From contig CAIIXF020000004.1 in assembly GCA_903813345.2 (NCBI GenBank), forward strand, positions 21,736,477 to 21,800,476: 64,000 nt of DNA, given 5' to 3'. The position numbers and the translations under genes are program-made. Positions 10,955 through 59,266 of this stretch are shown here, piece by piece; the first letter of the stretch is position 1; every line of letters begins with the position of its first letter. This DNA comes from Owenia fusiformis. Its lineage: Eukaryota > Annelida > Polychaeta > Sabellida > Oweniidae. The notes under the pieces were generated by a model that made no database searches, was not told the origin of the DNA, and was given only the letters and a program-made list of their open reading frames with translations.

Positions 10955-11605
10955 TAAACCAATAAGATTGAAGACACGTCATTCCAAGCAACTGATGATT
11001 AATTTAAATAATGGCTGCCAGTCCTGCTTTCATAGCAGATCATGCCAGGGGGGGAGATCTCCCAAAGTTCAGCCTTCGTATTCGATCACGTGGCACTCAC
11101 GTGCTAGATCCATATAAGGCTTAGATGACCATATAGGAATCCAACTGATCGTTGTCCGCCATTTTGAATATCATGTGATAGATCCATATAAGGTTTGTAT
11201 GACCATATAGGAAGTTGTCCGCCATTTTGAATATCATGTGATAGATCCATATAAGGTTTGTATGACCACATAGGATGGCTAAGGGGAATCCCCGAATACG
11301 AAAGTATTATGGGAGCTACTCACTTCTTCTGAGATCATGTAATGCAATGAATTACTCTGGGTGGGCAAAGGATGTCCTTGAAGACCCTGCACAACGTTTT
11401 CCGGATTGACTGACAAAAGGTGTTCAACTCCGGTGGGACTCGAACCCACAACCTTTGAATAACTTGGATTGTCCCCTAGAAGTCCAACGCGCTATCCATT
11501 GCGCCACGGAGTCACCATGGGATATTGAACCAACCAATACATAATCGATACCCAATATTAATTTTGAACAATTAACAAGATAAGAACTTACCCGTAATTA
11601 TTGTA
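10955..11605. repeat. Segmental duplication carrying tRNA-Arg, copy 1
   Basis: Shares AAGATTGAAGACACG, CAACTGATGATT, CAACGTTTTCCGGAT, the tRNA gene and TATTAATTTTGAACAATTAA with 28195-28850. This copy has a ~330-bp insert (11041-11370) containing 61-bp repeats (AGATCCATATAAGG..GACCATATAGGA, 11098-11280). Confidence 0.88.
11425..11513 (-). tRNA. tRNA-Arg(UCU) with a 16-nt intron
   Basis: Read on the minus strand the gene begins GACTCCGTGGCGCAATGG (acceptor stem and A box), has TTGGACTTCTA with anticodon TCT, then a 16-nt intron GGGGACAATCCAAGTT directly after the base 3' of the anticodon, then ATTCAAAGG, the B box GGTTCGAGTCCC and the closing acceptor strand CGGAGTT plus discriminator G. The base pair at positions 1-72 is G-U rather than G-C. 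Introns at this place are usual in eukaryotic tRNA-Arg(UCU). It lies in a segment duplicated at 28.6 kb. Confidence 0.93.
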
Positions 11606-28669: not shown

Positions 28670-28758
28670 CAACTCCGGTGGGACTCGAACCCACAACCTT
28701 TGAATAACTTGGAATATCCCCTAGAAGTCCAACGCGCTATCCATTGCGCCACGGAGTC
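28670..28758 (-). tRNA. tRNA-Arg(UCU), second copy, 16-nt intron
   Basis: Same mature sequence as the copy at 11425-11513, read on the minus strand from GACTCCGTGGCGC. The intron, GGGGATATTCCAAGTT, differs from the first copy at a few bases while the exons are unchanged, which fits selection on the mature tRNA. Flanks are homologous to those of the first copy (CAACGTTTTCCGGAT downstream, a shared AT-rich block upstream). Confidence 0.93.
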
Positions 28759-35138: not shown

Positions 35139-38100
35139 TCACATAGGTGGACATGCCGTCATGACCTCTGACAATGCAACTTTCTGTTCTTCAGTCAGTG
35201 AGTTAATACATACTTGAAACACCTCTTCATTTTGCTGGAAGTACAAAAGGTCAAGGTCAAACATTGGTTATAGAGTTGAATGACCTCTTTTAATGAGATT
35301 CAACAGCAATATCAGGGGTTTCACTAGAATTTCTCAAAACAGGCTAAATAACTGAAAACAACAGAGAAAATTAATGGAAATCGTAAATTTTATATGGAAA
35401 AGTTGAAAAACAACAGGCGATTTTGTGAAAACAACGGTGAAAATAGCCTGTTGAATGTGTAGTATGAAATAGCCGATTTAGTTTCTATACAAAAATTAGA
35501 TCTTTTGTTACTAATCGTTTCCAAAATGAAAATGGCATCAAAGGAGAATAGGAGATGACATCATTAAATTAAATTTTATTTTATTTACCTGAATTTGTCG
35601 GACCAATTTAACCAATCGTTTGCCTACTTCATCATCTGCACCCAGTGCGCCTTTGGCGAACACCTCTGCGATTATTTTAATAAGTGTAGGAACATTAGAA
35701 TTAATCCATCCTACTACTATAGGGTTATTCCTGAAACAAACAAGACACATCGTGATTAATATTGCACCAAAGGATTGCCTTTTGGGAAATTTAGTGCTGT
35801 GTGACTTGTAGTGAGAAATAATGAATGACTTATCCTCCATCTTTCATTATTGGATGACCCCTAAAGCAAAAAAATGCATTATGGGATTGGACGCCTGCAT
35901 ACTTTCATTGCATTTTGGGAAATTTAGTGAAATCTGACTTAAAGTGAGAAATAATGAAACTTGTCTGCTATCTCTCAGTTGCATATCATTCTATTTTGAC
36001 ACATCACCCGTGGAGTGAATTTCTAGTTGAATTCATGCTCAAAACACCATGGTGGTAACATGATAATCTTAAGTGAAGTAGCTGCAATTTTATCAATACT
36101 TACTTTTCCATAAGATCACATAAATAAGTGTATACATGCACAGCCTCATCTTCATCTTCATATACTGGTAACCAAGACAACCAATCTGGTAAGATTTTTT
36201 CAACGTCTTTTTCCTCTAGTTGGTATTTACATATTTTTGTTATAGCTGATATTGCATTCTCGGTTGGACATACATTTTCTGGATTCCTTGAGTCTTGTTC
36301 TTGTATGACTTTTACTAAGGATGGGATAGCCTCTGGAAACGAAACATCATCATCACATTATCTGATTATTATAGTTCAGTGTGGGATACGCCTTGTGCTG
36401 ATTTTCATAAAGTAGGAATTGATGTTCTTATTTTTGAGTGACTTTCAAAGAGGATGGGATAACCTCTTGAATTGAACTGGATAACAGCAATGACAATGTG
36501 TAGGCTAGCAAATCCCATCAACCATCATACAATGAGTTGATAATACTAATATCATCTTTCAATTTCTGCATACTGGGATATGCTGCTGGATCACTATCAG
36601 GAATTTCACTAGAATTTCTCACAAAAGGCTAAAAATATTTGAAAACAACAGGGAAAATTAATGGAAATCATAAATTTAACATGGAAAGTTGAAGTCCCTA
36701 AAAACAACAGGCAATTTTGTGAAAACAACCGGGGAAAATCACCTGTTTCCTGCTGCTAATGAAACCCCCGACTATGGTGCATTATGGAATAGGTTATCTA
36801 CTGGGATATATAGACCTTTCTTGATACGTACCATGACAGGCTTGAGCATACTGCGGTCCACCATTCTGTGCCATGACACCCACACCATAACATGCAGCCT
36901 GCCTCACTTCAGCTTGCTTATCACATATATATTCCAACATTTGTTTCAGGAAAAATTCTTGGTATTTAATTGAGTGCTGCAAAAAATGAAAATTGACGAC
37001 TCTCTGTGAATTGATCAATATCCAAAGGTATAATACACAATTGTCAAACGTTTTATGATGTTTTTATGACATTTTTTTAAGTGAAATACTGAACATATTC
37101 AAAATTGTGTTGATCTTTTGTAACTTCAAGCTATCCCAGCAAACATCAAGCATCCCAACAGTTCCTTCAAATACAATCAATAATTTTATTGAAAAACATA
37201 CAGATCAACAAAAAAACATTACCAAACATGCAGTGTAAGATTAGTGAATTTTATTCTGTAATGTCACATTATTTTGAAACTTTTGGAACTGGAGCAAGTG
37301 CATTATGGGATACTTACAGGCCCTGCATGCTCCATAAGGTCATCAAATATACACAGTCCCCATTGTTTGTCTGGCCATGGCCGATCTGAGTTCTGAAATA
37401 AAAAAAATGTATTCCATAAACACTGCAAAATATAGAGGAATACATCTAAGGTATACTGTAGAAGTGGAAACTTTAGCGAAACAAAACTTTAGCGAGATGG
37501 TCCCTAAAACGTTATTGCCGAATTAAACTTTCCCGGACCAGCAATCAAGAAAATGGAAAATTACTTGGAGTTTATAAGCTTATTATTAGGTTATCATGAA
37601 GCATTTATTCACCATCACGATTGGTTGCATTTTTGTAAACCCCGAGTTGTAAACATGTATATCACAGTTATTAGCTCTATATCACCGTTATTAGCCCTAT
37701 AATTAAACTTGCCTTTCGAGGAATGGCGTGTCACCATCAAAAGTAAGTCGTTTATGTTTGTGTGTAATCCCCAATCAATGTGCTCAAACCGTCAGTAGGT
37801 GTTAATACCCGACAAACAATCAAATAAAAGTAACAAACTCGGCTAATTCACTATCAAACTTTATTCTATTTATTGTACTATTGTAGGTGGATGTTGACTT
37901 GTGTTTATGTTTTGTTCAGTATCTTATGTTTTGTTTAGGAATAAATACTAGTATAGATCTATATAAAATAATCATGTCATTCATGTTAGTGATAAGTTGT
38001 CACGTGACAGTAGATATCCAATCAAATTACAGATTTTGTGATCGAAAATTCGAAAAATTAGTGGAATGTTTTCATCATTTAGGGCAACAAAACATGATTG

Positions 38101-41100
38101 CTAAACAAAATAGGTATTAATTATGATTGTAAATCGATGATGAAACACTGAGGTATGTATTATTTATGTATTCAAAACGAAATTCAGCATCTGGATGTCG
38201 ATCTGTATTCTTCACGGTATTATCGCCCACCGAAATTTTTTCTATTTTTCTACGAATTTTTATTTTGGCGTCTCTCCTTCAATGCTAAATTTCGCCAAAG
38301 TTTCCACGTCGTTAAAGTTTCCACTTCTACAGTATACAAGTTTATATTTTAGCAGCCATTTTGATTTTTTCTTTTGGGCATTAATTTTGAATTTTTTCTA
38401 TATTTAATCCCATTGATATGACTGAGCTCAGGGCTCCTTAAATGACAATCTAAAGAATCTTCAGTATAAAAAAAATCAATAAGTGGCAGCCATTTCATCA
38501 ATCATAATAAATTTATTAACCATCTCTCAACCAAATATGGCAACCATCACAAACACAGTAAAGTGATTTCTTTCAATCTCAAACAGAGCACTGTTTGGCA
38601 TGTTGACTATATGGTTGGTCCAGGTGCAAGTTCAGTATCTTTAACAGGTTAACACAGGATAACAGGCTTAGCTTTACTTACCAATAATTTAACAAAATGT
38701 GGTAATAGGTGTTCGAAATATGGCAGCATGGCTTCTTTATGAGTGCCAAATAGGGAGTGGATGATATCGGAAACCTTGCTTAATATGTACACGTCCTCAT
38801 CATTCTCATCCAGAAGTGTTTCTTCCACTACTTCATCATAGTCTTCGTCTTTACGTACATCTGAAAAATAACACATTCATATGAAGGAACACTGTATGTA
38901 TTGAATATACACATAGTGTTTCTTCCACTACTTCATCATAGTCTTCGTCTTTACGTACATCTGAAAAATAACACATTCATATGAAGGAACACTGTATGTA
39001 TTGAATATACACATAGTGTTTCTTCAACTACTTCATCATAGTCTTCGTCTTTACGTACATCTGAAAAATAACACATTCATATGAAGGAACACTGTATGTA
39101 TTGAATATACACATAGTGTTTCTTCAACTACTTCATCATAGTCTTCGTCTTTACGTACATCTGAAAAATAACACATTCATATGAAGGAACACTGTATGTA
39201 TTGAATATACACATAGTGTTTCTTCAACTACTTCATCATAGTCTTCGTCTTTACGTACATCTGAAAAATAACACATTCATATGAAGGAACACTGTATGTA
39301 TTGAATATACACATAGTGTTTCTTCAACTACTTCATCATAGTCTTCGTCTTTACGTACATCTGAAAAATAACACATTCATATGAAGGAACACTGTATGTA
39401 TTGAATATACACATAGTGTTTCTTCAACTACTTCATCATAGTCTTCGTCTTTACGTACATCTGAAAAATAACACATTCATATGAAGGAACACTGTATGTA
39501 TTGAATATACACATAGTGTTTCTTCAACTACTTCATCATAGTCTTCGTCTTTACGTACATCTGAAAAATAACACATTCATATGAAGGAACACTGTATGTA
39601 TTGAATATACACATAGTGTTTCTTCAACTACTTCATCATAGTCTTCAACTTTACGTACATCTGAATAACAACACATTCATATGAGGGAACACTGCATGTA
39701 TGGAATATACACTTCACATTACACAAAAATTTGATTATAATTATAAAGATACTTTACTTAATAGAATTAATTTTCTTGTTAAATTAGCTGTTTGTTTCAA
39801 TGAAGCAGAATGTAGAGGAACGACTAAAACCATGAATATTTTCTATTGGTTAAAAGTGTTGAATTGAACGAGGGACATGACTAAGTGTAAGATTCACATC
39901 ATTCTGAGGCTTGGAAGCGTGTTCAAAGTTTCAGTCTCAATAATTTGGGTCTTTGATTACAGCAGGAGTCCTCAAAGATCTATGAACATAAGGAAGGTGT
40001 TCTCTGTTTTATGAACAGGGAGAAATGGGTATAGAATAGGAAATATCTGCTCAGTGCTTCTTAGAGGACAATGAAAAGAATCGTCACATTTCATCAGATA
40101 TGAAATTCATCATCGCAGATTTATAAATAACAATTTTTAATCATTCGCCAATTTTGGTTTTATAATTTGCATATGCCATCAATACATTTACCTTGCCTAC
40201 TCTGTTGTTTCATGAAGTGATCCTTAAGTGTTTTGTCTAAGATACGTAATAGTTCAGCCATAACCTCCGCACTCAAGCAACCATTCCCCATCCTCTCCAC
40301 ACACTAAAAAGCAAAGCACAACCAGTGTCATGATGGGATATTTGATTAGGGGTATGATGGGATATATAAGGTTGCGTTGTGGCTGCGGCATCTTTATGAA
40401 ATGAAATATACGAGGGGTGATCAATAAGTAATTGACGTTTTTTTAAAATGCTTCTTATTGACCAATTTCAATGATTTCTTTCTTATTGATCACCCCTCGT
40501 ATATCTATCAAATCCAAAGATTTGGGAGATATTTATCATTAGAAATATTACTGATTTTCTGATAAAGCATTTTTTATTAAATGTTGCTCAGAGATCTTAG
40601 TGGTAGATTGTGTTACTTCAGCGAATCTCAGATAGCAAATATCAATATCATCATCGCAACATATAATGCAAAATTCTTCCATCATCTAGATCAATAAATA
40701 AATGAAATGGATATATATTTGTCAATGCACAAGATCTTTGTACCCAATTGTGATTAATTTATTGAATATTAAAATTTCATCCATTAAAATGTCATTCCTT
40801 CCTCAGACAATACACTTGAATGTAATAATTTGTGCTAGTGTCAACTAAATATTCTGATTTGTTCTATCTTTACTTTATAGCAAACAAAATGTTCATGTCT
40901 TCAAGCAGAAATTTCCCAAAATTTGAATCATTAGATCAGATTAAAATTCATGACGTTACCTGTGCAAATGAGTGCATAAGTTCCGACTTAATATCATTTT
41001 CAGGTTCATGTTCAATAGCTTTGAGGAGTTCAGGGCAGACTGCAGACCACATCTGTGTGATATACTCGGGCCCTCTTATCTTGGCGCAGTCTAGTAAGAA

Positions 41101-44100
41101 CGGCATACTCTCAGCTGCAGCCACTCGCACTCGTGAGTGAAGTCAAGGAATGTAACAGAATTAATAAAGACATCCACAAAAAGTTGGAGACTATAACAAT
41201 ATGTCATGACTCGTTGTTGTGAATTAACAATATCACATACATTACTTATGATGGAGGCTTTGTACTAACTTATTCAAAGAGATACACTCCTCTCCAAAGA
41301 TTTGGCAATAGCAAATTCCATTTTGGACACAATGTTAAAGTCTGGTTATGTTTGGCAATAATCAAATTTGTCATAAAGTTCCAATCTAATGTAATCATGA
41401 GGAATAGATTTAGGAATGAAACATGAGCTAGCTTTAATATGCTATCCTACATTGACTTCTGGTCAAAAACATATGATAGGGGTCTACAACATGAATTCAG
41501 TGTTGCTCAGAGATCTTAGTGGTAGATTGTGTTACTTCAGCAAATCTCAGATAGCAAATATCAATATCATCATCGCAACACTGAAATTCATTTCCACTGA
41601 AGTGTTGACAACTGGAAACAATCCCCGAGAAGTCTACTATTTATACCAAGTAGTTAAGCACTCACAAGAAAATGATGGGTCGTGGGTTCAATCCCCACTG
41701 GGGTGAACTGACCTTTTCACACCAGGCCTTGGTGCAGGATTTCATTTTGTGTTTTCATTAATCAAAGAATATTCAAATTTTACATCCTTGGATATAACCT
41801 TTTTGCTTGCATCAAAAAAGTTAATTATATTGATTGGTTATAAAAATCATATTCATTAGTTTGTATCAACAACAAATATGCTAATTAATTAATTAATTAA
41901 AGGATATCATCATGGAAGTAGAACTTCAGCAAAGGTATCATGATGTGTACACACTGCTCTGCATAGGCTGCGAATCCCTCCTTTAATTCTCTGGCATAGC
42001 ACACCAACATTTGACACGCTGTGGCTTTCTCTTCCAACCCTGCTGTTCTGATTCCAAAACTTTGCTGTAATGAAATGAGGTTATATCAATGTAAGCATTT
42101 TCAAGTTTTTTAGCACAACTCATTCAGTGTTCAGACGTTCTCCCAAGAATTTTGCTAAAGTGGGTGCAAAAAATTCATTTTTTGAATATGCCTATTTTCA
42201 TGATTTTTCTCATTTTCAAGTGGGTGTAAATGGATCCTAAAGTGGGTGCAAGCTTCTTATTAAAATCTCAAGTGGGTGCTGCACCCACTTGCTTTAATAC
42301 TGGGGAGATCACTACCATTATTATTATTTTTTTCAATCTACTCAAACCATCATAGTTTCACATACTTCCTCCTTTGAATGATAAATTTGTATTTACCTGG
42401 TCACCAAGGGTAACAAATTATTTACCTGGTCGCCAAGGGTAACAAACTGCCAATCAGAGTCATTCTCCATCACTTTCATGTCATCACCTACAGACAACAT
42501 AACACCCCTTTATATCACACTTGGACTCACCCAATATACACCAAGGGTAAGTCTATGTTATTCCACAGGGAGGAGCAAGTATTAGATGTAATTTAGTATT
42601 ACTAACAGATACTATATGTAACATAAGTTTCAAATCATGCTATAAAACATCAAAAAAATTAACTCCTAAAGATTTTGAATAATATTTAGTATAACATTTC
42701 AAATATACCCAAGAAATTAAATATTACAAATCAATTATTGTAAAATGTGAGGGGGTTTACACACAAGCATAATTTACATATAAAGACCATGATTTTGACA
42801 TTACAATCTAATTTTAAAAAATCATGATAATTTCTTTTTTCCTAGAATAAACATTTATGTGTAACAAAAAGATTCACAAGAAAAAGTGAAATGTGAAAAA
42901 TTCAATGAAATTACAAACACAAATACACACACAATATGCATACATTAAATTCAATAAAGGAAAGATGAAAAAGTTGAAAAATGGAGAAATTACACAGATT
43001 TAGAAAACGTAAAGAAATGATTTGAAGTCCCTTACCAAGAAGGAATGACCGAATGACTTTGTCATCTATGAATGTAGTAATAACAATGACAAGAATATTA
43101 ATGACTATTATCATGACAAGAATAATATTTCCTAAATATTCATTTTTGTTAATATTATTGAATATACAAGTTCATTTAGTCAACAAATTGTTCGCTTCAT
43201 AATATCAGGAATTCTTTATTTGTAAAATTGACACATAATTGTTCAAATCTTTGATTTCCTTGAATAATATTTGCTTATTTGGAATTTTAGCAAAAAATAG
43301 TGACAGCGAATAAAAGGCACTCAAAAGTTTTAAAAGTGAGAACATACCTCCCGTAACTGTACAAAAAATAACTCATCATATGACCCTTTCAAAGATGATA
43401 ATGAATAATGTGTATGTAAAATAGGAAGTTCATTATTAAGTAGTGCCACGTATGGGTTGAATAGAAGCAGCCCCAAGGACAGAACACACAGAGGTTCATC
43501 TTTCCAAATAAGTCATATTGTGTGAAATGGGACTTACTGTCTAGCACTGCGACCTCAGGTTTGATAGAAGCTGCTTTGAGAACCGGGCCCATGACTAGAG
43601 GCAGGTACTGTTCAAACTCTTTGCCCATTATCTTACACATCCTAGCCCATGCTGAGATCATATAGGAGATTTGTGGATCATCATCGTCAAGTTCTTCAAC
43701 ATTTACTTGACTCTTCAACAGAAGTTGCATCACTTCACCAGCATCTGCTATGAACTGAAAAAAATGATTATCAAAATGAACAAGTGATCAACATATATAT
43801 ACATGGCATGTTATGTCTTCAGGATGAACAGGGGTTTAATTAGCAGCAGGCAACGGGCGAATTTCACCAACTGTTTTCACAAAATCGACTGTTGTTTTTA
43901 GGGACTTTTCAACTTTTCCATGTTAAATTTATGATTTCCGTTAATTTTGCCTGTTGTTTTCATTTATTTAACCTGTCTGAAAACAGCCATATGTGTGTTA
44001 AAAGAGATCCTTAAAATCACCAAATGAGGAACGGGGGTTTCGTTAGCAGCAGGCAACAAGCGATTTTCACGGGTTGTTTTCACAAAACCAGCTGATGTTG

Positions 44101-47100
44101 ACTTTTCAACTTTTCCATGTTAAATTTATGATTTCTATTAATTTTGCCTGTTGTTTTCATTTATTTAGCCTGTTGTGACAATTTCTAGTGAAACCCCTGA
44201 TGAAAGAATTTTCCAATGGTATTGAAGCTTCTGAATTGTGATGTTGATTCCTGACTGCTGAAGGGTGTTATAATAGGCAACAAGGCACAGGACGTGAACG
44301 AGATCACACCATCAAATAGGCAGACACTATGAACCAGGAAAACTGTTCTCCTATTATGTTTACAAATTTCAAGAACAAGAAAACAAGATGGCCGCCCAAA
44401 AGTTAATCAGCTCTACTTGATATCCTCTATCATTTGTGTAAATTTGAAGGAAATCCGATGAGCGGTTTTCCTGAAATGGCGATGACAAGATTTTTCGAAA
44501 AACCTTCAAAATGGCCACAAGAAAACAAGATGGCCGCCCAAAAGTTAATCAGCTCTAGTACTTGATATCCTCTATCATGTGTGTAAATTTGAAGGAAATA
44601 CGATGAGCGGATTTTCTGAAATGGCGATGACAAGATTTTTCGAAAAATCTTCAAAATGGCTGCCAGAAAACAAGATGGCCGCCCAAAAGTTAATCAGCTC
44701 TAGTACTTAATATCCTCTATCATTTGTGTGAATTTGAAGGAAAACCGATGAGCGGTTTTCCTGAAATGGCGATGACAAGATTTTTCGAAAAACCTTCAAA
44801 ATGGCCACCAGAAAACAAGATGGCCGCCCAAAAGTTAATCAGCTCTAGTACTTGATATCCTCTATCATTTGTGTGAATTTGAAGGAAAACCGATGAGCGG
44901 TTTTCCTGAAATGGCGATGACAAGATTTTTCGAAAAACCTTCAAAATGGCCACCAGAAAACAAGATGGCCACCCAAAAGTTAATCAGCTCTAGTACTTGA
45001 TATCCTCTATCATTTGTGTAAATTTGAAGGAAATCCAATGAGCGGTTTTCCTGAAATGGCGATGACAAGATTTTTCGAAAAACCTTCAAAATGGCCACCA
45101 GAAAACAAGATGGCCACCCAAAAGTTAATCAGCTCTAGTACTTCATATGCTCTATCATCTCTGCGAATTTGGAGAAAATCTGATGAGCAGTTTTCCTTAA
45201 ACGGCGATGACAAAAAGCGGGACGATCACGATCACGACCACGACCACGATCACGATCACGACCACGATCACGACCACGATCACGACCAGTATGACGACTA
45301 TATCCCACCGATGGTGTGATAAAAAACACATAACAGAGGAAAAACTTAATAAAATGCAAACTGAAGACAAGATATGGGGAAGACCTACCTTGTCTTTGCC
45401 TACAGCAAGCCCTATTAAACTGATGCATTCTATGGTTTTACCCCTCAGGAGTTTCAGCTTTGGGTCATTTGCATTCTGCATTATGTACTTCAGAGATGGC
45501 ATGAACCTATAATGAAAGCACAGCTCATGGTGAAAGAATACGCCTACTTTCCGAAGTGTCATGAGACAGTGTGCAAGGCTCGTGAGTATTCACATATCAA
45601 TTTTCAAAATGGCCGCCTTCTACCAAAAGTGTCATAGGACAGTGTGCCATGCTTATAGTATTCACATACCAAATATGAACAAAATCGCTCCACTACTTTT
45701 CTAGTTATAGTAAAATATGTTAAAATGGCGGCCATTTTTCAAAATTTTTTTTTTTTGGTAGTTACATGAGCATTATATTAACTTGTATTCAATAGTTTCA
45801 ATCTGTTATAAGTATTACTAACACATTTCCTTTTTATCTTAATTTATACATGATATGATAATTATTTTGTAATAATGTTAAATAATTTTAAGTGTAACAA
45901 TAGTGTGTTGCTCAGAGATCTTAGTGGTAGATTGTGTTACTTCAGCGAATCTCAGATAGCAAATATCAATATCATCATTGCAACACATTGTACAGTGTAT
46001 TCTTGTGCTTTAATCGCATCGTTGAAAATAAAACGGTGATCTCACATACCCTCTCCCTAACGTTGAAACATGAGACTTTCAACAAGACTTACAACCTCTT
46101 GAAAACCCAATTGCACAAGTTAAATAAGAAAATCATGAAAAATGGCATGTTTCTCCAAAATTTGTCGAACTTGCAAAATGATAATGTCAAGAAAAATCCT
46201 GGCAAGAACACGGATTCACACTTGTCATAACAAGCTACACAACTGTCACAATTAGCTACATAACAGTAACAATTAGCTACATAACAGTAACAATTAGCTA
46301 CATAACAGTAACAATTAGCTACATAACAGTCACAATTAGCTACATAACAGTCACAATTAGATACATACCTGTCATAATAAGCTACATAACAGTCACAATT
46401 AGATACATACCTGTCATAATAAGCTATGAACTTTTCTTCTGCAGTATCTGCCACTGAAGCCAAGGTAGTGACAACTTGCTCTAAAACCATCTTGTTGCCA
46501 ACTTCCAACAGCTATCAAGACAAATAAACCATTTAAGTAACTTAATATGGTGAAAGATGTGGAAAACCAAATTAATTCCATTAATATAACACTAAGATTC
46601 CTCGTAAGATAAAAAATTCTACACTTGAATTCTTTACTTAGTGAAATGGTTGTATTCCCCCACGTCTCGCCTAATAAATTAAATTTGTGATTGAGAATTC
46701 ATCTTCACCTCAACTTTCCAATATTATATTATTCAATGCATTTCAAGATAATAATTGGTAAACTAGTGATATACTAGAGAATGGCAACTCCACGGAGTAG
46801 CAAATCCCAACAAACACTATATAAATCATCAATCTGTACAGTCACAATGTAATATTGACCTTCTACTCTTACCTTCAATAAATATTTTAAATAATTGTAG
46901 TATCATGTAACCATACTTTAAAGATAACTCTAAGTAATGGCGAATTTCTGCTCTAGTCAGCCATTTTGAATTTTCAGAGGCGAAAATCAGAAAAACAATG
47001 CCATAATTGTGATCTACTCTGAAATTCCTTCAATTTGAGTATAATATAGCCATACTTTTAAGAGATCATAAAATAATTGCGAAATCCTGCATTAGGCGGC

Positions 47101-50100
47101 CATTTTGAATTTTTTGAGGCCCGAATCAGAAAAATGCTACAATATTTGCAATCTACTCTAAATTGCCTTTCATTTGAGTATAATAAAGATATACTTCAAA
47201 AACATCTCAAAATTAATGCAAATTCCTGTTTTCCCAACCCCCGATTTACGCCCTCTGGGGGTCAGGGTGGAAAACCTGGGATATATGTGAAATAGATAGA
47301 TGTTGTTAATATACTACCAAAATTTCAAATAATAATATTTATTATTTTGGTTTAAAATGAAAAACATAAGATTTTAGCGAAAAATTCCCGCCATTTTTAA
47401 ACTGGCGGCCATCTTGAAAAAAATTTGTTTGTGTAAAACCATTCACCAATATACACGTACATCTTTCCACCAAATATGAAAAAAATCTGTCGACTAGTAT
47501 TCGAGTTATCTTCCGGACAGACGGACGGACTGACTGACACTGACGGACGGACAGACGGAGGGCTTCACTATATCCCAACAGAACTTCGTTCGTTGGGATA
47601 AATACTGCATGATGTCTGCTCAGTGCTTCTTAGAGGAAAACTATGAAATTCTTCATTTAGTTCAGATATAAGTTTCATCATGGCAAACTACAGAATCTGT
47701 AAATACAGTATTTTTCCAGTATTTCGAATTCCCAAATAAATAGTTTCGCCTTGTATTTTTTGTAATTATTTGGACAAGTAATCTTACCTCTTTAAATTTT
47801 GCACTTAGAACTTGTTCGAGTTTGGCTATTATCACATCCAAATATGGAGTTATTATGTTTTTCGGACAATCTTCACTGAAGTTTACGAGAGCTGCCCCTG
47901 CATGTGCCTGCACTCTTGGGTTAGGATAGTCGCCCATCACTATAAGTAAACCCGTTACCACCTGAAATGTCCAAATATGGTGTTATTATGTTCACGCATT
48001 GCCAAGTGATTAACGATTTAATGTGACACATTTACTGGCTCCAATTCATGTATTTATTCTTCATTTTAATTTTGAAAAAAATTGATTTCCTCTTTGGAAA
48101 TTTCTTCAGTATATTAACTGGCTGAGCCTGGATTTTGGTAGAACTCATTACATTGGCTGATACCCTTTACACATTCAATTTTGATTGGAGCTTTACATTT
48201 GTTCAAGCTGAATCTTATATTGGTCCAATGTCGTTGTCATTATACATGCACATCCTATTATAAAAGATATACATAATTAGCAGACAACATTTCTCTCGCG
48301 AATATAAAAATTGAACTGGTCTATGGAAGAGATCCAGCACAGAGTGTTATTCGCATTGCATTATGGGAATGACCTTGACAGCAGACGTATAATAGAATCA
48401 AGAAAGTCATACCTTATTCAAGAAATCAAGAAAGTCACACCTTATTCAAATGATATATGTCATGTTTTTTTCAAATAAACATATTTTGATTCACATTCTA
48501 GAATTTTTAACAGGATTAATCTGTATATCTTACCTTTTCATGGAACTTTTTCTGGAAAATTGGCCCGAAATCAGTTGATAATTGTCCTAGTGCATTACAT
48601 GCTGCATAGCGTACTCGAGGGTGCTGAAATTCAACAATGAAATGACACATTAGTACTTCAAATTTTTGAAAAGTTAATTCAAATCAACTAACTTCAAGTT
48701 ACATGCACCAAGGGTCTGCTCAGTGCTTCTTAGAGGATAACTATAAAATTCTTCAAGGATCTCAGAGAGAAGTTTCATCACAGCAGACTATTTCATTAGC
48801 AAGACCATTGGCAACTCTATGATCATCAACTTTGAAGCTTCCTAGTCAACTGGTACCCAAGACAACTGGTACCCAAGATTATTTTCAGTATTATGGGTGC
48901 ATATTAGGGAAAAAAATTGAGTTTGTAATGTTTTCATGTTATAATGTGAATCAAATAAGCCTCAATATTTTTTGAATTTAGAAGACATTTTTTCTCAATG
49001 GATCAGTTAAGCATTTAGATTTAACTTGGATCACCTTTTTTATCAAATATATATTGTATATCTATTCACATTCCCAGTCCAACGCTTGATTCAAAACAAA
49101 ATATATACTTGGGTACGAGTTTACCACTTACCAGTTTAAAGCTATAAAATTCATTTAGACTTTCAAAAATTCTATTTGCATCTTTAATATTGCACAACTT
49201 CTGTCAGTAATGGAGACTTTCAAAAATTCTATTTATATTCTAAATATTGCATAATTTCTGTGAGTATAAAACTCAACAAGCCCACTTTGGGGTTAATGGG
49301 GACAGATTCTATTCAAGACTCATGATAGTATTTTGTTAGTTAATGAACGAAATTCAGCACCAAGGACCGATGTGAAAAAGTCAGTCTACTTTCGTGGGGA
49401 TCGAACCAACGACCCCTTACTTTCCGGTGAGTGCTCTTTTATTTAATACCTTATCTCCTAGAAACGGGAGTACAGCTTCAACAATATTATGCAGCATTAG
49501 TTCCATATTTTTGTGACACCCCTCACCACACGCAGATATCGCCATGAGAGCTGCATGTCTGTACCGCCAGTCCACTAAAATAAAGAATGTTACATCACAT
49601 GAAACAATCAACAATGTTGCTCAGTATTTGTACAAAACAATAGTAGTATGTTTTTCCTACACTAAAAAGTAATAGCCAATGTATAATGCATTTATACCAT
49701 GACCTTGGCTTCTTTCAAAAGCTGTGGATCTCTAGTATTTCATTGTATTGGGCACACTCATCACTTGCTTTCATGTTGTTGCCATTAAAAAGTATATCCT
49801 AATAACAAAAGATGTACACTACGCAGGCAACATTTATTTAGCGAATATAAAAATTGAACTGGATTATGGTAGAGATCCAGCACAGAGTGCTATTCGCATT
49901 GCATTATGGGAATGACCTTGACAGCAGATGCAAATTTAACATCTTCCAGTCAATTAGATTGCCTGCTTATTTTAAGGCTAAAACTGAGAATAATAGTATA
50001 GTAGGAGCATTTAACTTAGCATTAATTCATGAAAAAAATGTTTTTTAATCACACTTTGTTTCATGTACAGCCTCGGCCATAGGAAAAATTGAAGCCACAC

Positions 50101-53100
50101 GTGACGATACGTTTGATATTCACAATACATTTGATAGACTCACATGCATTTGCCAGCATCTGTGATATGTTTGCTATGATATGAGGGAGCATTGTCTTGC
50201 CCCCTAGACCACATGCAAGTCTGTCTAGCGCACTCTCTCCTGCTATTGGATTACTGAAATTTACAAATATAACATACATGTACAGTCATACAAACAATCA
50301 TAATTTGTATATCAATACCCATTCAGTGTCCAACACTTGATTCACAACTAAATATAAACGTGCGGACCAGTCCACTTGGAGACAATTTGACTTGGTATGA
50401 ATTGTCTTGAGAAAGCGTTGTCTCAAGGACCAGTTATCTTTGGGGCCAGATATCTTTCGGACCATTGGTTACCATAGAAACATTTTTAGTTTAGTTAAGA
50501 TATACTAGTAGGTAATCTGCTCAGTGCTTCTTAGAGGAAAACTATGAAATTCTTCATGGTGTTCAGAGAGAAGTTTCATCCGTGCAGAAAATAATAAACT
50601 CAACCAGATTTGCCCATGAGGCACCACAGGCAATCTCAACATTGAATCATGAGAGACTTAGCCATTATGTCAGTCACTGAATATATGCCTAAGCCCTAAG
50701 GTCTGTCATCAATAATGCCTAAACTTGCGAGGGCTCTATTACGATAGACCGAAGGCATATATTCAATGATACGGTACATAATATTGTTGTATTACATACC
50801 TTTATTTCCATGGCTACTTTATATCAATGATGCCAAACATCTGAGTGCAAGTGAAATTTGGGAGAAATGCAAAATGACATCATAAGATTATCATGGTAAA
50901 AAGTTTGGCAGCTATACAGGAATATATAGCCGACCTTCCGCGACATCGACTCCCATACAAATGCTTCGCTTGGTTTGTAATACAACATATTATATCTTGG
51001 TTCAAGTTGGTCAGTCCATGAGAGACCACATATAATATCTGGGTTCAATGTAGTCAGTCCATGAGTGACCACATATATATATTTTTCCTCTATATGATCA
51101 TACCTGTCATTGTCATCTTCATCATTATTATCAGCTGTGGCCCAGTCATCATCTTCTTCAAGGTCTACCATCAGTGCCAGGATCTGGGGGACTAAAATGT
51201 TAAATGTTTATGCTGAAGTAATGTCATACACCTATGCTGTGTCAATATGACCTTTGACATTTTAATGTTATCATTATTCTCAAATCAAACATCAATTGTA
51301 TGTGTAGCATTATGAATGGTCTGCTCAGTGCTTCTTAGAGGAAAAACTATGAAATTCATCATTGAGTTCAGCTAGAAGTTTCATCATAGCAGATTGCTGT
51401 CCTTTATTCTATGATACTTGTAACTAGCCTCTCATTATGAGTATGAGGCTATCAGCATGTTTTCAATTCGATGGTCAATATTAGAGGATTAGAATATACA
51501 GGGACACATAAAATGCAAACCTCTAAATTTGCCATATCTTCTCATGAATAATTAAGGTTGTATATTCACGAATGCAACTAACGGCTATTATCAAGAAGAT
51601 TTCATCATAACTGAATCATTCCAAAAATGGAGGGTTGCATCAACAGTAATTATTTCAATAACTTTCTCACCTAAATGTTCTATAAACTTTCCATGTTTTC
51701 TCAACATAGCTGGCGCAGTTTCTGATAGTGTGACAATAACTTCCAAGGATAGGTGGCGCCATGAGTCAGGTATATTAGCATCTGATAAAACCTGAAAATT
51801 AAATTGATGATTTTCATCATTTCAATTAAAGCTTTTCAGTCGTCAAACATTAGCAGCATGTTACAGACAATTTTCAACAGTTGTTTAACCAACATCACCT
51901 GTATTTTGAAGAACTTTCGAAGTGTTTTGATGTTTAAGAAATCATAATTTTCAAATGATACACGTCATCAAAAAATCTAACTAGATAACGGCAACTCCGC
52001 GGAGTAGCAAGCAAATCACAACCAACAAAATATCCATTACCGAATTCAAATCAATTATACTCATTACTTTGGTTAAAATTGAAAAATTTAGATTTTAGAA
52101 TTGCGAATTCCTGCAAAGCAGCCATTTTGAATTTTCTGAGGTACAAATCTGAAAAATAATACCATAATTGTGATCTACTACAAAATTCCTTCAATTTGAG
52201 TATAATATAGCCATACTTTGAAGGGATCGAAAAATTATTGAATTATTTGAATTTTACGAGGCTCGAATCAGAAAAAAGATACAATATTTGCAATCTACTC
52301 TTAATTGCCTTTAATTTGAGTATAATAAAGCTATACTTCAGAAAGATCTAAAAATAAGCGAAAATTTCTGTTTTCCTGACCCCCCATATACGGCCCCTGG
52401 GGGTCAGGATGAAAAACATGGAATATATTTGAAATAGATAGATGTTGCGAATATACTACCAAAATTTCAAATAATAATAATATTAATTACTTTGGTTTAG
52501 AATGAAAAATTTAAGTTTTTTCAAAAGTCCCGTCATTTTTAAAGCGGCGGCCATCTTGAAAAATTTTTTTTTTGCGTAAAACTATTCACCAATATACATC
52601 TTTCTACTAAATATGAAGAAAATCCGTCAACTAATATTTGAGTTATCTTCCGGACGGACAGACGGACGGACAGACGGACGGACTGACTGATGGACGGACG
52701 GAGGGCTTCACTATATCCCTACCGAACTTCGTTCGTTGGGATAATTATACCCTGGGTTTAATTCATGAAACTTGCATATTGGATGTGGTGTATATAATAC
52801 TGATAAACATACAAAAGAACTTTTTAATGATGATAGATTTACCGGATTAATAAATCAGATTTTTTTAAAATAGCTGCTCAGTGCTTCTTAGAGGAAAACT
52901 ATGAAATTCTTCATAAATTTCAGATAGAAGTTTCATACTTGCAGAAAATGAAAGTTTCAAAGAAGGCAAAGATTCAAAGAAAGATCTTTCGGTCTACTTC
53001 TCAGATAACATATTTATACTGTACATATTTTCTAAAATGAGTCTGTAAGAAGTACTACATACCTTCATAGAGAGGGTTATAATATTTTCTAGTTGACCAC

Positions 53101-56100
53101 GTAGGAACTTTGGTGTATTTTCAGCCAGATCTATCAGACACTTTAGTACAGTATCATCCTGTTGAAGTGCCACGGAGTCTGTAACTCCCTAGAATGTATA
53201 CATTAATGTTTTGTTATTTTCAACCGGATATATCAAACACTTTCACACAGTATCATCCTGTTGAAGTGCAACCGAGTCTGTAACACCCTAGAATGTATAC
53301 ATTAATGTTTTGTTATTTTCAACCGGATATATCAAACACTTTCACACAGTATCATCCTGTTGAAGTGCCACTGAGTCTGTAACTCCCTAGAATGTATACA
53401 AATGTTTTGTTATTTTCAACCGGATATATCAAACACTTTCACACAGTATCATCCTGTTGAAGTGCCACTGAGTCTGTAACTCCCTAGAATGTATACAAAT
53501 GTTTTGTTATTTTCAACCGGATATATCAAACACTTCCACACAGAATCATCCTGTTGAAGTGCCACTGAGTCTGTAACTCCCTAGAATGTATACAAATGTT
53601 TTGTTATTTTCAACCGGATATATCAAACACTTTCACACAGTATCATCCTGTTGAAGTGCCACTGAGTCTGTAACACCCTAGAATGAATACAAATGTTTTG
53701 TTATTTTCAACCGGATATATCAAACACTTTCACACAGTATCATCCTGTTGAAGTGCCACGGAGTCTGTAACACCCTAGAATGAATACAAATGTTTTGTTA
53801 TTTTCAACCGGATATATCAAACACTTTCACACAGTATCATCCTGTTGAAGTGCCACTGAGTCTGTAACACCCTAGAATGTATACATTAATGTTTTGTTAT
53901 TTTCAACCGGATATATCAAACACTTTCACACAGTATCATCCTGTTGAAGTGCCACGGAGTCTAAAACCCTAGAATGAATACAAATGTTTTAAGATTAGGA
54001 AATCAACGAATTTAGACAATCATCGATGATCTCTCAGTAGAATTGAAAATAAAACATGAGAAGAATAAGACAAAAATAAACGAGACGAATCATGTCTCTT
54101 GATTTGAATATTTCATTTGTTGATTCAGTTTTACCAAAATACTGTTTTTCACCCAGAAATGTACAATAAGCATTATTATAAGCTTATAGCACTGAAGAGG
54201 GGTGATACATTGCTATACTCCATCTATTAACAAATCTGCTACAAGGAAACAGATATGTTGCATTCCGGAGAAATATCCAACACGTTTAATTACATTTTTA
54301 TATGATGAGGTTTACCCGTACAATGATGTATTTACCCGTACAATGATGTATTTACCCGTACAATGATGTATTTACCCGTACAATGATGTATTTACTCATA
54401 CAATGATATATTTACCTGTACAATGAGTTGGAGCAGATCTTTGAAGAGGTTCTGTATGTTCAATTCTTCGTCTTCATCATTTGCCAGAATGAAGGCAGCA
54501 GTTGCTTTAACAGCTTCAAACCTCACCTTGAATAAAACGAAACAATGTATCCATGATATATACGTTTCTTTTACTGACAAAAACTTAGCATCAAATGCAT
54601 GGATCATTTGTCATTTCTTTTGTCAAGGAATACAAAAAGAACTGTAAATTTTCAAATTTTACACAAAAATACAATTCATTTTTTCAGAAAAAGAAATAAC
54701 AGAAAAAAACCTTTGTTGATGTTTTTTATGATTTGTCTACCTACAGATATTGTTTTCTACTGATAAAAAGTGTTTTTCACCCAGAAATGTACAATAAGCA
54801 TTATTATAAGCTTATAGCACTGAAGAGGGGTAATACATTATTGTACTCCATCTATTAACAAATCTGCTATAAGGAAACAGATACGTTGCATTCCGGAGCA
54901 TTCTCCAAACAACTGCATTCAGTAAATAATACTCTTCTCTGCAGACCTTTGATTTCTTTTTTGAACATTTTTTTTTCAAAATTGACATTGTTTCATGGTC
55001 ATATGAATCACTCTGGCAAATTGGCATGGTAACTGTAAGTGTAGAAGTGTAAGGAAGGAGACATAATAGCACTGAATAAAAGGGACTTCATTTGAAAGAG
55101 AACATATTGTTTTCATAAAAAACACGACTGTATTTATGGCGAGAAAGTGCTCATGGTGAAAGATATGACTGTCTAAAATCACTTGCCATACCTCACATGG
55201 ACCATACAATTCTGGCCAATAAGAAAAATATTATTTTTAAGTGGATACACTGATCAGAAAATGCTTGATTATTTTCAAAACCTCAAAAATCCACTTACTT
55301 AACCAGTGAAAACACAAAATGATATTAAGTCTGATACCTGATGAGAAGCATCCATTAAACAGTGATGTAACATGTCTTTTATAACATGCAGATATTGGGC
55401 CTGCTGGTTGCCAAATATTCCTGGGGTGGTACTGAAGATCCTAAGTGCGCTCTCCTTCAAGGCTGAGTCCTCCGACTGTGCACAATCAAACATAAACTTC
55501 AGGACTTCCGGCCATGAGTTGTTGCCATCATCATCTGGAAGTGCACAAGAAATAAATATGGGGAGTAAAACACAGTGGAATATCTCTGAAAAGAGGAACA
55601 TCTCTGAAGAGTGGAACACTGTTGGTGGAACACTTTCACGAGTGGAACATTTTTCAGAGTCCCATGATAAACTGACTTTATGAGAAATGATCCTCTGTAA
55701 GTGTGACACCTCCCAGGTGGAAGATTATTAGAGGTACCCAGGGCTTGCATTAACGGCGTCCCGTACATGTTAAGGACTCAAAAATAATTTGGAGGACGCA
55801 AAAATTGAAAATATTTCCGTTTTATGGACGCAAATTTTTTTAGGTCAATACTAATCATGATCTTTCACCTTTATTTGAATCGTAAATAAGGCTCAACATG
55901 TTGAATATTTACAAATAATCATGATTCTCTCAAATTTTTTCGACTTTGTTTATTTTTAGATTTGAAACCATGACACGCCACAGTTTTTCCTATTCAGAAA
56001 CAAATATTAGGTTATTCATGAAATAAAATGTATTCATTGTCAAATGAACGAACATGCATTTATTCAGTCCGTACTTAACGTTTACTTCCGTTTTAAATTC

Positions 56101-59100: not shown

Positions 59101-59266
59101 CACGTGGATATTTCAAGATTCGTAGGTCGATTTAATAGGAAATCTCGGATGAATATTCTTTATATATATGGGAAACGATACATACCTGATGTTGATTTCG
59201 TATGTCATTATCAGGGCTAAGAAGACCCTGTAATAAACTTTGAAACTGAGCCTGATCAGCGGCCAT
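35139..59266 (-). CDS. IPO5: Importin-5 (RanBP5 / karyopherin beta-3), complete, 25 coding exons
   Basis: Nuclear import receptor of the importin-beta family: a HEAT-repeat solenoid that binds cargo, including ribosomal proteins and histones, and releases it to Ran-GTP in the nucleus. Coding exons (1 to 25): 59186-59266; 57887-57967; 57450-57642; 55338-55534; 54416-54526; 53063-53188; 51671-51791; 51104-51191; 50144-50253; 49450-49574; 48534-48623; 47788-47961; 46411-46511; 45389-45506; 43538-43754; 42426-42487; 41908-42064; 40960-41132; 40192-40303; 38682-38860; 37318-37392; 36832-36976; 36104-36332; 35589-35730; 35139-35234. They sum to 3303 nt, 1100 aa plus TGA; human IPO5 is 1097 aa and aligns end to end. 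Visible landmarks: AELARNLL (residues ~111-118), [16 protein letters not shown], an acidic loop near 313-331, [42 protein letters not shown], acidic loop near 816-836, [15 protein letters not shown]. All junctions are in phase; every intron is GT-AG except intron 17 (AT-AC). Start chosen at MAADQAQF. Introns host 13 snoRNAs. Confidence 0.97.
35313..35455. mobile_element. GGGGTTTC-end MITE fragment, IPO5 intron 24
   Basis: GGGGTTTCACTAGAATTTCTC then GAAAACAACAGxGAAAATTAATGGAAATC and AACAACAGGCGATTTTGTGA; the same family as the next entries. Confidence 0.82.
36596..36771. mobile_element. GGGGTTTC-end MITE, IPO5 intron 22
   Basis: Runs from GGAATTTCACTAGAATTTCTC to CTGCTGCTAATGAAACCCCC, with the same internal AACAACAGG blocks. 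Confidence 0.82.
37451..38337. mobile_element. ~890-bp element with inverted ends, IPO5 intron 20
   Basis: GTATACTGTAGAAGTGGAAA-CTTTA at the left is mirrored by TAAAGTTTCCACTTCTACAG-TATAC at the right, with further inner matches TTTAGCGA / TTCGCC..AAAG. No transposase is seen. Confidence 0.87.
38815..39715. repeat. 100-bp tandem array copied from the exon 20 acceptor (9 units)
   Basis: Units begin at 38815, 38915, 39015 and so on to 39615 with an exact 100-bp period. Each holds the 3' splice site TTTTTCAG plus the first ~46 nt of exon 20 and about 54 nt of flank. The first unit is the real junction. Later units differ by very few bases (one C-to-A in the exon part from unit 3 on), and only the last is noticeably diverged, so the expansion is recent. 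Confidence 0.95.
40045..40120 (-). ncRNA. C/D-box snoRNA, family A (18S guide), IPO5 intron 19
   Basis: Stem ATCTGC/GCAGAT (6 bp), C box GATGATGA, guide CCTCTAAGAAG, D box CTGA; 76 nt. The middle part (D'/C' region) is the most diverged of the family, while guide, boxes and stem pairing are kept. It lies about 70 nt from the 5' splice site. Confidence 0.88.
40581..40662 (-). ncRNA. SNORD24: C/D-box snoRNA U24 (SNORD24-like), IPO5 intron 18
   Basis: Stem ATGTTGC/GCAACAT (7 bp), C box GATGATGA at 40648-40655, D' and D guides identical to the other two U24 copies, D box CTGA at 40588-40591. 82 nt. Confidence 0.92.
41496..41585 (-). ncRNA. SNORD24: C/D-box snoRNA U24 (SNORD24-like), in the AT-AC intron 17
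   Basis: Same U24 guides and boxes as the copies in introns 13 and 18. The terminal stem is a perfect 11 bp, TTCAGTGTTGC/GCAACACTGAA, longer than in its paralogs and with different outer bases that are still paired. C box GATGATGA, D box CTGA. Core RNA about 41501-41580. Confidence 0.92.
41645..41745 (+). mobile_element. tRNA-derived SINE, IPO5 intron 17
   Basis: Has a B-box-like GGGTTCAATCCCC followed by GAACTGACCTTTTCACACC and CCTTGGTGC; same structure as 49351-49440. Confidence 0.75.
42392..42454. repeat. 29-bp duplication of the exon 16 donor
   Basis: The 3' end of exon 16 (TTACCCTTGGCGACCAG) plus its donor GTAAAT is repeated 29 bp downstream with one difference in the exon part. Use of the second donor would shift the frame. 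Confidence 0.9.
43828..44199. mobile_element. Two GGGGTTTC-end MITE copies, IPO5 intron 14
   Basis: Copies at about 43830-43985 and 44034-44199, opposite in orientation to those in introns 22 and 24 (GTTAGCAGCAGGCAACAxGCG ... CTAGTGAAACCCC). Confidence 0.82.
44375..45195. repeat. 145-bp tandem repeat in IPO5 intron 14 (about 6 units)
   Basis: Unit contains AACAAGATGGCC, TTAATCAGCTCTAGTACTTG and GAGCGGTTTTCCTGAAATGG; starts are spaced about 145 bp (for example 44800, 44945, 45090). It creates the repetitive open frames on both strands here, which are not genes. Confidence 0.92.
45226..45292. repeat. (GATCAC/GACCAC)n microsatellite
   Basis: Hexamer-like run of GATCACGACCAC units between the 145-bp array and exon 14. 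Confidence 0.93.
45904..45987 (-). ncRNA. SNORD24: C/D-box snoRNA U24 (SNORD24-like), IPO5 intron 13
   Basis: Minus strand: stem TGTGTTGC/GCAACACA (8 bp), C box AATGATGA, D' guide ATTTGCTAT before CTGA, D guide CTACCACTAAGATC before CTGA. Both guides match 28S rRNA in the pattern of human U24: the D' guide pairs with UAGCAAAUAU and the D guide with GAUCUUGGUGGUAG (one G-U), two adjacent parts of one conserved 28S stretch. Confidence 0.92.
46230..46432. repeat. 21/42-bp tandem array grown from the exon 13 donor
   Basis: On the minus strand a 42-nt block containing TATTATGACAG and the donor GTATGTAT occurs twice, then runs into 21-nt units (GCTAATTGTTACTGTTATGTA). The duplicate donor is at 46368, 42 nt from the real one (46410). 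The array keeps an open reading frame. Confidence 0.9.
46772..47601. repeat. ~800-bp dispersed repeat, IPO5 intron 12
   Basis: Starts near GGCAACTCC(A/G)CGGAGTAGCAA, contains two GGCCATTTTGAATTTT blocks and a (GGAC)n-like tract, and ends with TATCCCAACAGAACTTCGTT / CGTTGGGATA. Homologous to 51981-52743. Confidence 0.9.
47614..47688 (-). ncRNA. C/D-box snoRNA, family A (18S guide), IPO5 intron 12
   Basis: C box ATGATGA, D' CTGA, guide CCTCTAAGAAG, D box CTGA; terminal stem GTTTGC/GCAGAC, six pairs including one G-U. It starts about a dozen bases from the end of a long dispersed repeat (46772-47601). Confidence 0.87.
48226..48355 (-). ncRNA. H/ACA-type snoRNA, family C copy 2, IPO5 intron 11
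   Basis: Homolog of the intron 9 RNA. 5' lower stem GCGAATA/TATTCGC and upper stem CTGG/CCAG; H box AGAGAA (ANANNA). The 3' lower stem is TGTTGTC/GACAACG where the other copy has TGTTGCC/GGCAACA: C-G has become U-A and the outer U-A has become U-G, so pairing is conserved by compensatory change. An ACA box follows with 3 nt (TTG) to the end. Confidence 0.82.
48714..48788 (-). ncRNA. C/D-box snoRNA, family A (18S guide), IPO5 intron 10
   Basis: Minus strand: stem GTCTGC/GCAGAC, C box GTGATGA, D' CTGA, guide CCTCTAAGAAG, D box CTGA; 75 nt. The stem's outer pair differs from the intron 7 and 19 copies but is still paired. It lies about 90 nt from the 3' splice site. Confidence 0.88.
49351..49440 (-). 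mobile_element. tRNA-derived SINE touching the exon 10 donor
   Basis: Minus strand: GAGCACTCACCGGAAAGTAA, B box GGTTCGATCCCC, then GACTGACTTTTTCACATCGG and CCTTGGTGC. It begins only about 10 nt into intron 10. Confidence 0.75.
49771..49897 (-). ncRNA. H/ACA-type snoRNA, family C copy 1, IPO5 intron 9
   Basis: 5' hairpin: perfect 7-bp lower stem GCGAATA/TATTCGC, pocket of 10+11 nt, upper stem CTGGAT/ATCCAG. H box AAATAA (fits ANANNA). 3' hairpin: perfect 7-bp lower stem TGTTGCC/GGCAACA with an inner stem around AGTGTA/TATACT. It is followed at once by ACA and 3 nt (TGA), the textbook H/ACA end. The sequence conserved with the intron 11 copy also extends about 30 nt 5' of the first stem. Confidence 0.82.
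50516..50588 (-). ncRNA. C/D-box snoRNA, family A (18S guide), IPO5 intron 8
   Basis: Same guide and D box as the other family A copies; stem TCTGC/GCAGA; C box GGATGA (one base off TGATGA); D' CTGA present. 73 nt. Confidence 0.82.
51320..51393 (-). ncRNA. C/D-box snoRNA, family A (18S guide), IPO5 intron 7
   Basis: The most canonical copy. Minus strand: terminal stem TCTGC/GCAGA, C box ATGATGA, D' box CTGA, C' box TGATGA, guide CCTCTAAGAAG, D box CTGA, total 74 nt. The guide pairs over 11 bp with 18S rRNA CUUCUUAGAGG. By the rule that the base pairing 5 nt upstream of the D box is methylated, the target is the second U of CUU, which I believe is human 18S Um1442, the SNORD61 site. Confidence 0.9.
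51981..52743. repeat. ~770-bp dispersed repeat, IPO5 intron 6
   Basis: Collinear with 46772-47601, same orientation, ending GAACTTCGTTCGTTGGGATAA. A family A snoRNA lies just beyond its end, as in intron 12. Confidence 0.9.
52873..52945 (-). ncRNA. C/D-box snoRNA, family A (18S guide), IPO5 intron 6
   Basis: Minus strand: D box CTGA preceded by the antisense element CCTCTAAGAAG, complementary to CUUCUUAGAGG of 18S rRNA, as in five other copies in this gene. D' CTGA is present. The C box is degenerate (GTATGA instead of TGATGA) and the terminal stem is only about 4 bp (CTGC/GCAG), so this copy may be decaying. Confidence 0.68.
53189..53990. repeat. 97-99-bp tandem array copied from the exon 6 acceptor (8 units)
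   Basis: Units contain CAACCGGATATATC at 53221, 53320, 53417, 53514, 53611, 53708, 53805 and 53904. On the minus strand each has an acceptor (CATTCTAG or similar) and the first ~45 nt of exon 6, after which the copies read ACT GTG TGA, a stop, where the real exon reads ACT GTA CTA. Confidence 0.93.
54150..54272 (-). ncRNA. H/ACA-type snoRNA, family D copy 2, IPO5 intron 5
   Basis: Homolog of the intron 4 RNA with the same layout: CTCC/GGAG lower stem, AACATATCTG/CAGATTTGTT upper stem, H box ATAGCA (ANANNA), 3' lower stem TCACCC/GGGTGA, apical stem ATAAGC/GCTTAT, ACA box followed by 3 nt. In the 3' lower stem the other copy has a wobble pair (TTACCC) where this one is fully paired, so pairing is kept while bases differ. 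Confidence 0.66.
54311..54430. repeat. 20-bp tandem array of the exon 5 donor (6 units)
   Basis: Units start at 54311, 54331, 54351, 54371, 54391 and 54411. The last contains the true exon 5 donor (CATTGTACAG then GTAAAT); the others read CATTGTACGG-GTAAAT or similar, so most keep a usable-looking GTAAAT donor. Confidence 0.93.
54768..54900 (-). ncRNA. H/ACA-type snoRNA, family D copy 1, IPO5 intron 4
   Basis: Two hairpins with a hinge. 5' hairpin: lower stem CTCC/GGAG, symmetric pocket of 7+7 nt, upper stem AACGTATCTG pairing with CAGATTTGTT. H box ACAATA (fits ANANNA). 3' hairpin: lower stem TTACCC/GGGTGA, pocket, apical stem ATAAGC/GCTTAT with a 10-nt loop. An ACA triplet lies 3 nt from the inferred 3' end. 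A homologous copy lies in intron 5. The fold was built by hand and the guide target was not worked out. Confidence 0.66.
57177..57378. mobile_element. MITE related to 28347-28488, IPO5 intron 3
   Basis: TATGCCTTAGTCACATTTGCTC is mirrored by GAGCAAATGTGACCTTGGCATA; both copies keep ATTTTGTTCAAAATTGAA-like inner arms. Confidence 0.85.
58176..58585. mobile_element. 410-bp foldback, ~150-bp arms, IPO5 intron 1
   Basis: Left arm 58176-58325, right arm 58436-58585; CAGCTGGAAAGTAACATTTT and TAGAATATCTGG at the left are mirrored by CCAGATATTCTA and AATGTTACTTTCCAGCTG at the right, with very few mismatches. Confidence 0.92.

Follow-up and report, generated by a model that had tools for sequence, protein, structure and literature searches.

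Thirteen predicted small nucleolar RNA loci from four families in the introns of the Owenia fusiformis importin-5 gene

Introduction

RPL7A is a known vertebrate host of SNORD24, and gas5-like and UHG-type genes are generally known as non-coding hosts of small nucleolar RNAs (snoRNAs). Repetition of a snoRNA within a single coding gene has been described in Xenopus, where U17 is reported to recur through all introns of S8 (PMC7601244). For chicken, a snoRNA catalogue places U24 in RPL7A, U61 in RBMX, and a U32 homologue in introns 4 and 7 of KPNB1, and treats both cis- and trans-duplication of snoRNAs as known processes (PMC2653536). It also describes gas5-like and UHG-type hosts. Such hosts generally have many snoRNA introns, form copying hotspots, and apparently encode no protein. 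More broadly, a further study presents broadly expressed genes as preferred snoRNA hosts and the mobility of snoRNAs among them as a constrained-drift model (PMC3511168).

The importin-5 gene (IPO5) of the annelid Owenia fusiformis shares features with each of these systems. Like Xenopus S8, it carries one snoRNA per intron, with one family repeated across the introns of a coding gene. S8, however, is a ribosomal-protein host of a single H/ACA family, whereas IPO5 is an importin gene with 13 loci from four families that span both classes, C/D and H/ACA. Chicken KPNB1 is also an importin-beta-family host of a repeated C/D snoRNA, and it sets a precedent for a host of this family, although KPNB1 is a different importin and carries two copies of one snoRNA family. 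Chicken RPL7A and RBMX host the same snoRNA types as IPO5, and Owenia RPL7A also contains a SNORD24, but in Owenia it is IPO5 that holds the additional SNORD24 copies and the sole SNORD61 detected. Gas5-like and UHG-type hosts resemble IPO5 in their many snoRNA introns and in being copying hotspots; unlike them, IPO5 is an intact coding gene. A search of open-licence papers found none on snoRNAs in IPO5 or on SNORD61 with an importin, which does not imply absence from print. Relative to the literature encountered, the new elements are the IPO5 host, the presence of 13 loci in one coding gene, and the meeting there of four families of both classes.

The host gene

The window analysed is a stretch of 64,000 nucleotides (64 kb), in which IPO5 occupies positions 59266 to 35139 on the minus strand. 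A hand-built model joined at splice sites comprises 25 coding exons and 24 introns. The joined translation of exons 1–24 contains no stop, and exon 25 begins at 35234 and closes with a stop codon ending at 35139. Residues 2–1069, translated from exons 1–24, give a full-length match to human Importin-5 (6xte) with 1436 bits in phmmer, and IPO5 is an intact coding gene here.

Two minisatellites lie within the gene, at 53116–53990 and 38815–39712, with units of 97 and 100 bp and nine copies each; the first re-copies a 3′ splice site plus the start of exon 6, and the second does the same for exon 20. Outside IPO5, two near-identical tRNA genes (11425–11513 and 28670–28758, minus strand) stand 17 kb apart, with equal Rfam scores and apparently an intron in each.

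Layout of the snoRNA loci

The original prediction held that 13 snoRNA loci from four families lie on the IPO5 sense strand, and all 13 are present in the introns, order, and orientation it gave (Table 1). Introns 4–13 carry D, D, A, A, A, C, A, C, A, and B in that order, and introns 17–19 carry B, B, and A, where A designates SNORD61-type loci, B SNORD24, and C and D two H/ACA families. The prediction named introns and letters rather than individual coordinates, and the assignment of letters to families was made in the present analysis. The predicted rule of one locus per intron, always in sense, holds for the detected loci, a set drawn from Rfam, repeats, and a C/D motif scan, and further single H/ACA genes are possible. 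The prediction of a snoRNA in each of ten consecutive introns stands as far as loci are concerned, but it overstates the number of working copies because the A copies in introns 6 and 8 carry damaged C boxes. The distance from locus to 3′ splice site varies from 92 to 1186 nt without any rule, and a fixed spacing was rejected.

At curated cut-offs, Rfam covariance models identify one SNORD61 and three SNORD24 genes in the window, all on the minus strand, along with the two tRNAs elsewhere. The minus-strand covariance search that had been proposed as a check places four of the 13 loci above a curated cut-off, with the other nine below cut-off or unmatched. A permissive Rfam search of IPO5 yields 25 rows, all on the minus strand and including chance-level rows such as miRNA families; among them are five further loci that match SNORD61 or snoU61 and one in intron 9 that matches an H/ACA family, and both D copies and the intron 11 C copy are absent from them. 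The C/D motif scan was run on both strands of the entire window and allowed no more than a single mismatch in the C box, while also requiring D′ and D boxes and a terminal stem of at least 5 bp, with thresholds set after the loci had been seen. It produced nine rows that correspond to seven loci, all on the minus strand in IPO5 introns 7, 10, 12, 13, 17, 18, and 19, and no locus on the plus strand.

Table 1. Predicted snoRNA loci, a decayed relic, and an AT-AC intron within IPO5, in window positions.
Feature	Intron	Position	Strand	Characteristics
H/ACA RNA candidate, family D	4	54769–54901	−	fold z −2.6; hinge ACAATA, 3′ ACA by eye
H/ACA RNA candidate, family D	5	54141–54273	−	fold z −3.0; hinge ATAGCA fits ANANNA
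SNORD61-like C/D RNA	6	52874–52942	−	RF00270 32.2 bits; C box AGTATGA damaged; 14-bp 18S guide
SNORD61-like C/D RNA	7	51321–51390	−	RF00270 41.9 bits; motif scan passed; 14-bp 18S guide
SNORD61-like C/D RNA	8	50517–50585	−	RF00270 33.4 bits; C box CGGATGA damaged; 14-bp 18S guide
H/ACA RNA candidate, family C	9	49770–49899	−	fold z −4.0; 18S pocket
SNORD61-like C/D RNA	10	48716–48786	−	RF01170 33.2 bits; motif scan passed; 13-bp 18S guide
H/ACA RNA candidate, family C	11	48225–48356	−	fold z −3.7; psi18S-841 27.3 bits
SNORD61-like C/D RNA	12	47616–47684	−	RF00270 42.4 bits; motif scan passed; 14-bp 18S guide
SNORD24	13	45908–45983	−	Rfam 47.4 bits, cut-off 41; both guides fit 28S fragment
AT-AC intron, U12-type, hosting SNORD24	17	41133–41907	−	starts ATATCCTTT, TTCCTTGAC near end, ends AC
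SNORD24	17	41503–41578	−	Rfam 48.3 bits, cut-off 41; both guides fit 28S fragment
SNORD24	18	40584–40659	−	Rfam 46.9 bits, cut-off 41; both guides fit 28S fragment
SNORD61	19	40047–40116	−	Rfam 54 bits, cut-off 43
Decayed SNORD61 relic, guide altered	20	38426–38463	−	31/38 identical to SNORD61

SNORD61 and its relatives

The intron 19 copy is a SNORD61 (RF00270) by its score, its passage through the motif scan, and a 13-bp guide to 18S rRNA that precedes box D, and a DNA search of the genome with this copy returns only itself. The five other A copies are named SNORD61-like because none reaches an Rfam cut-off (43 for RF00270 and 55 for snoU61, RF01170). Three of them, in introns 7, 10, and 12, pass the box C/D motif scan, and those in introns 6 and 8 are absent from it. 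The five A copies are 79–85% alike and 65–72% like the intron 19 SNORD61. In all six SNORD61-type copies, the guide pairs over 13–14 bp with one shared 18S site and is directed to a single uridine there. They also share an invariant run of 22 columns, comprising guide, D box, and stem, that was reached in 1 of 10,000 column shuffles. This run suggests constraint without proving it, because the six copies share ancestry, which contributes to the invariance. For the D′ guide, the intron 19 copy can pair with 18S over 10 bp, two of them wobbles, and the five A copies gave no new target, their longest pairing run in 18S or 28S fragments being 8 bp.

To look for extra copies, each query was aligned locally against IPO5 after masking of the nine C/D loci, and its best match was kept. 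The SNORD61 query led to the relic in intron 20, which scored 41; shuffled queries, 200 in all, reached at most 32, and the antisense strand gave 25. With A or SNORD24 as the query, the single best match scored 25, no higher than the shuffled maxima of 35 and 33.

This relic, the damaged C boxes in introns 6 and 8, and the sub-cut-off scores of five of the six SNORD61-type copies together favor an explanation in which most copies are pseudogenes of an earlier burst, with production limited to the SNORD24 copies, the intron 19 SNORD61, and possibly a single C copy. We regard this as unlikely, though deserving of serious attention. Three of the five sub-cut-off A copies keep the C, D′, and D boxes and the terminal stem, and the guide half is invariant in all six SNORD61-type copies while a large part of the remainder varies, a pattern to which shared ancestry adds.

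SNORD24 in IPO5 and RPL7A

All three IPO5 copies of SNORD24 (RF00069) score above the cut-off and pass the C/D motif scan. Their guides pair over 12 and 15 bp, wobbles included, with dispersed 28S fragments rather than the 28S gene; these fragments were retrieved with a search pattern that itself includes a portion of the SNORD24 target. Three short 28S rRNA scraps were seen in unrelated places (L015 near position 1500, L018 and L019 near position 1000). They diverge from one another immediately past the searched pattern and are perhaps traces of an rDNA-linked element.

A fourth SNORD24 lies at positions 1503–1578 of a separate genomic locus (L014), with 43 bits against the cut-off of 41. It is on the coding strand, between coding pieces 1204–1275 and 2054–2164, and its host is identified as RPL7A because the gene pieces match L7a/eL8 chains. 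The remark in the original prediction that the vertebrate hosts are RPL7A for U24 and RBMX for SNORD61 agrees with the chicken catalogue (PMC2653536), and for U24 it extends to this genome, whose own RPL7A carries a SNORD24. Over 88 nt with short flanks, the IPO5 copies are 91–93% identical to one another and 81–84% identical to the RPL7A copy. These identities fit one trans-move followed by local spread, a direction that we infer. The RPL7A region also has a SNORD14-like RNA at 289–381 of L014 (minus strand; 47.2 bits, cut-off 64), the core of which recurs at 905–931 (minus strand), between RPL7A coding pieces.

U12-type AT-AC introns are characterized by ATATCCTT at the 5′ site, a TTCCTTRAC branch site, and a terminal AC. 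Intron 17 begins with ATATCCTTT and ends with TTCCTTGACTTCACTCAC, and its sequence matches this consensus, marking it as a predicted U12-type AT-AC intron. The SNORD24 within it would, as a consequence, depend on minor-spliceosome splicing. No example of a snoRNA in a U12-type intron was found in open-licence papers, and a snoRNA in an AT-AC intron would offer a way to test whether minor-spliceosome introns can supply snoRNAs.

H/ACA candidates

The C copies (introns 9 and 11) and the D copies (introns 4 and 5) all fold into two hairpins with internal loops, with z values from −2.6 to −4.0. All four display the box H/ACA features of two hairpins, an ANANNA hinge, and an ACA near the 3′ end, with boxes assigned by eye, and none exceeds any Rfam cut-off. 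The two D copies are 92% identical over 144 nt and have no compensated pairs between them. Their hinge changes from ACAATA to ATAGCA and retains its fit to ANANNA, and the intron 4 copy has no Rfam family match near cut-off. Both C copies retain the hinge and ACA, again by eye, and differ by three double-sided compensated pair changes. The intron 9 copy scores 32.7 bits with SNORA72 (cut-off 43), 29.6 with psi18S-841, and 19.6 with SNORA77, all below cut-off, and the intron 11 copy also falls short of the psi18S-841 cut-off of 50. The likeness to these three families is strongest in the 5′ hairpin. C reaches the cut-off of none of them, the best score being 32.7 against 43.

The pocket of the first C hairpin fits 18S rRNA around aaaaattagagtgtt; of 300 shuffled 18S sequences, 4 scored at least as well for the intron 9 copy and 1 for the intron 11 copy. 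This result comes from a final test that applied a single rule, set after earlier trials, to eight pockets, two of which have the same sequence. An earlier definition of the C hairpin-1 pocket gave nothing (134 and 146 of 200 shuffles reached the score), and a second definition, for which the intron 9 copy alone was used, recovered the 18S site (1 of 200). Among the eight pockets, only the two from C hairpin 1 stand out. The second D hairpin has a weak 18S site (reached by 23 and 26 of 300 shuffles), and no 18S site was found for the first D hairpin (136 and 128 of 300) or the second C hairpin (257 and 292 of 300).

Origin and mechanism

With a probability of about 90%, IPO5 is a multi-intron snoRNA host: snoRNAs entered the gene, spread between its introns, and are processed from them after splicing, and some have decayed. 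The observations on which this reading draws are the anatomy and strand of the loci, their confinement within search sensitivity, the relations among copies, and the complementarity of guides to rRNA. Expression, processing, the direction of copying, and rRNA modification are inferred.

Release of intronic snoRNAs takes place by an established route of splicing, debranching, and exonuclease trimming around the bound snoRNP. Each snoRNA would be carried in IPO5 pre-mRNA and freed after splicing by debranching and exonuclease trimming, during which C/D or H/ACA proteins would protect it. The predicted role of the SNORD24 copies is to direct methylation at a pair of neighboring cytidines in 28S rRNA; that of SNORD61 with its five relatives concerns a single 18S uridine, and that of family C a single 18S pseudouridine. 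SNORD24 probably moved from RPL7A to IPO5 by trans-duplication. The families may then have multiplied from intron to intron by cis-duplication, with some copies (introns 6, 8, and 20) decaying.

Retroposition is unsupported as the mode of copying, with no target-site duplication and no consistent A-tail at the 13 loci. The longest flanking direct repeats measure 4–7 nt at all 13 loci and are like those at random places in the same gene, tandem arrays included (4–6 nt at 311 of 400), and 3′ A-runs do not exceed 7.

Importin-5 carries ribosomal proteins. This role, together with the meeting of four families in one gene, speaks for a functional coupling of the kind raised in the original prediction, in which selection favored IPO5 as a host because the supply of rRNA guides would then co-vary with importin output. 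Such coupling is nonetheless improbable, as broad expression alone accounts for a host in the model set out in PMC3511168, and cis-duplication accounts for most of the copy number. A more ambitious proposal, for which we see similarly long odds, is that IPO5 has become, in this lineage, a dedicated snoRNA-dosage gene and the coding counterpart of GAS5 or UHG, one that attracts unrelated families, ties guide supply to ribosomal-protein import, and makes one SNORD24 dependent on the minor spliceosome.

DNA searches of the 498-Mb genome returned two places for D, two for C, five for A, one for SNORD61, and four for SNORD24; the IPO5 loci account for 13 of the 14, all in IPO5 sense, and the remaining one is the SNORD24 in RPL7A. 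Such searches miss copies that are about 70% identical, as seen from the failure of the A and SNORD61 queries to find each other. A search with RF00270, in which 61 of about 517,000 candidates were scored, listed the intron 19 copy as its sole match, and the A copies are absent from that listing. Dispersal of the same sequences elsewhere in the genome had been named as a check on the prediction; within search sensitivity, these snoRNA families are confined almost only to IPO5. That the loci are dispersed or mobile SINE-like repeats merely resembling snoRNAs, as repeated sequences bounded near the RNA ends might suggest, is scarcely credible given so few places and guides that match rRNA.

Significance

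Guide RNAs that are carried and multiply inside a host gene are a known phenomenon, of which IPO5, as a multi-intron snoRNA host, is an ordinary example apart from its unusual crowding. It offers a clear case of snoRNAs colonizing one housekeeping gene, visible in the RPL7A SNORD24 alongside three IPO5 copies, in the guide that stays invariant across six SNORD61-type copies, and in damaged copies beside intact ones. Through the IPO5 nest, related species can serve to test neutral drift among hosts against a selected coupling.
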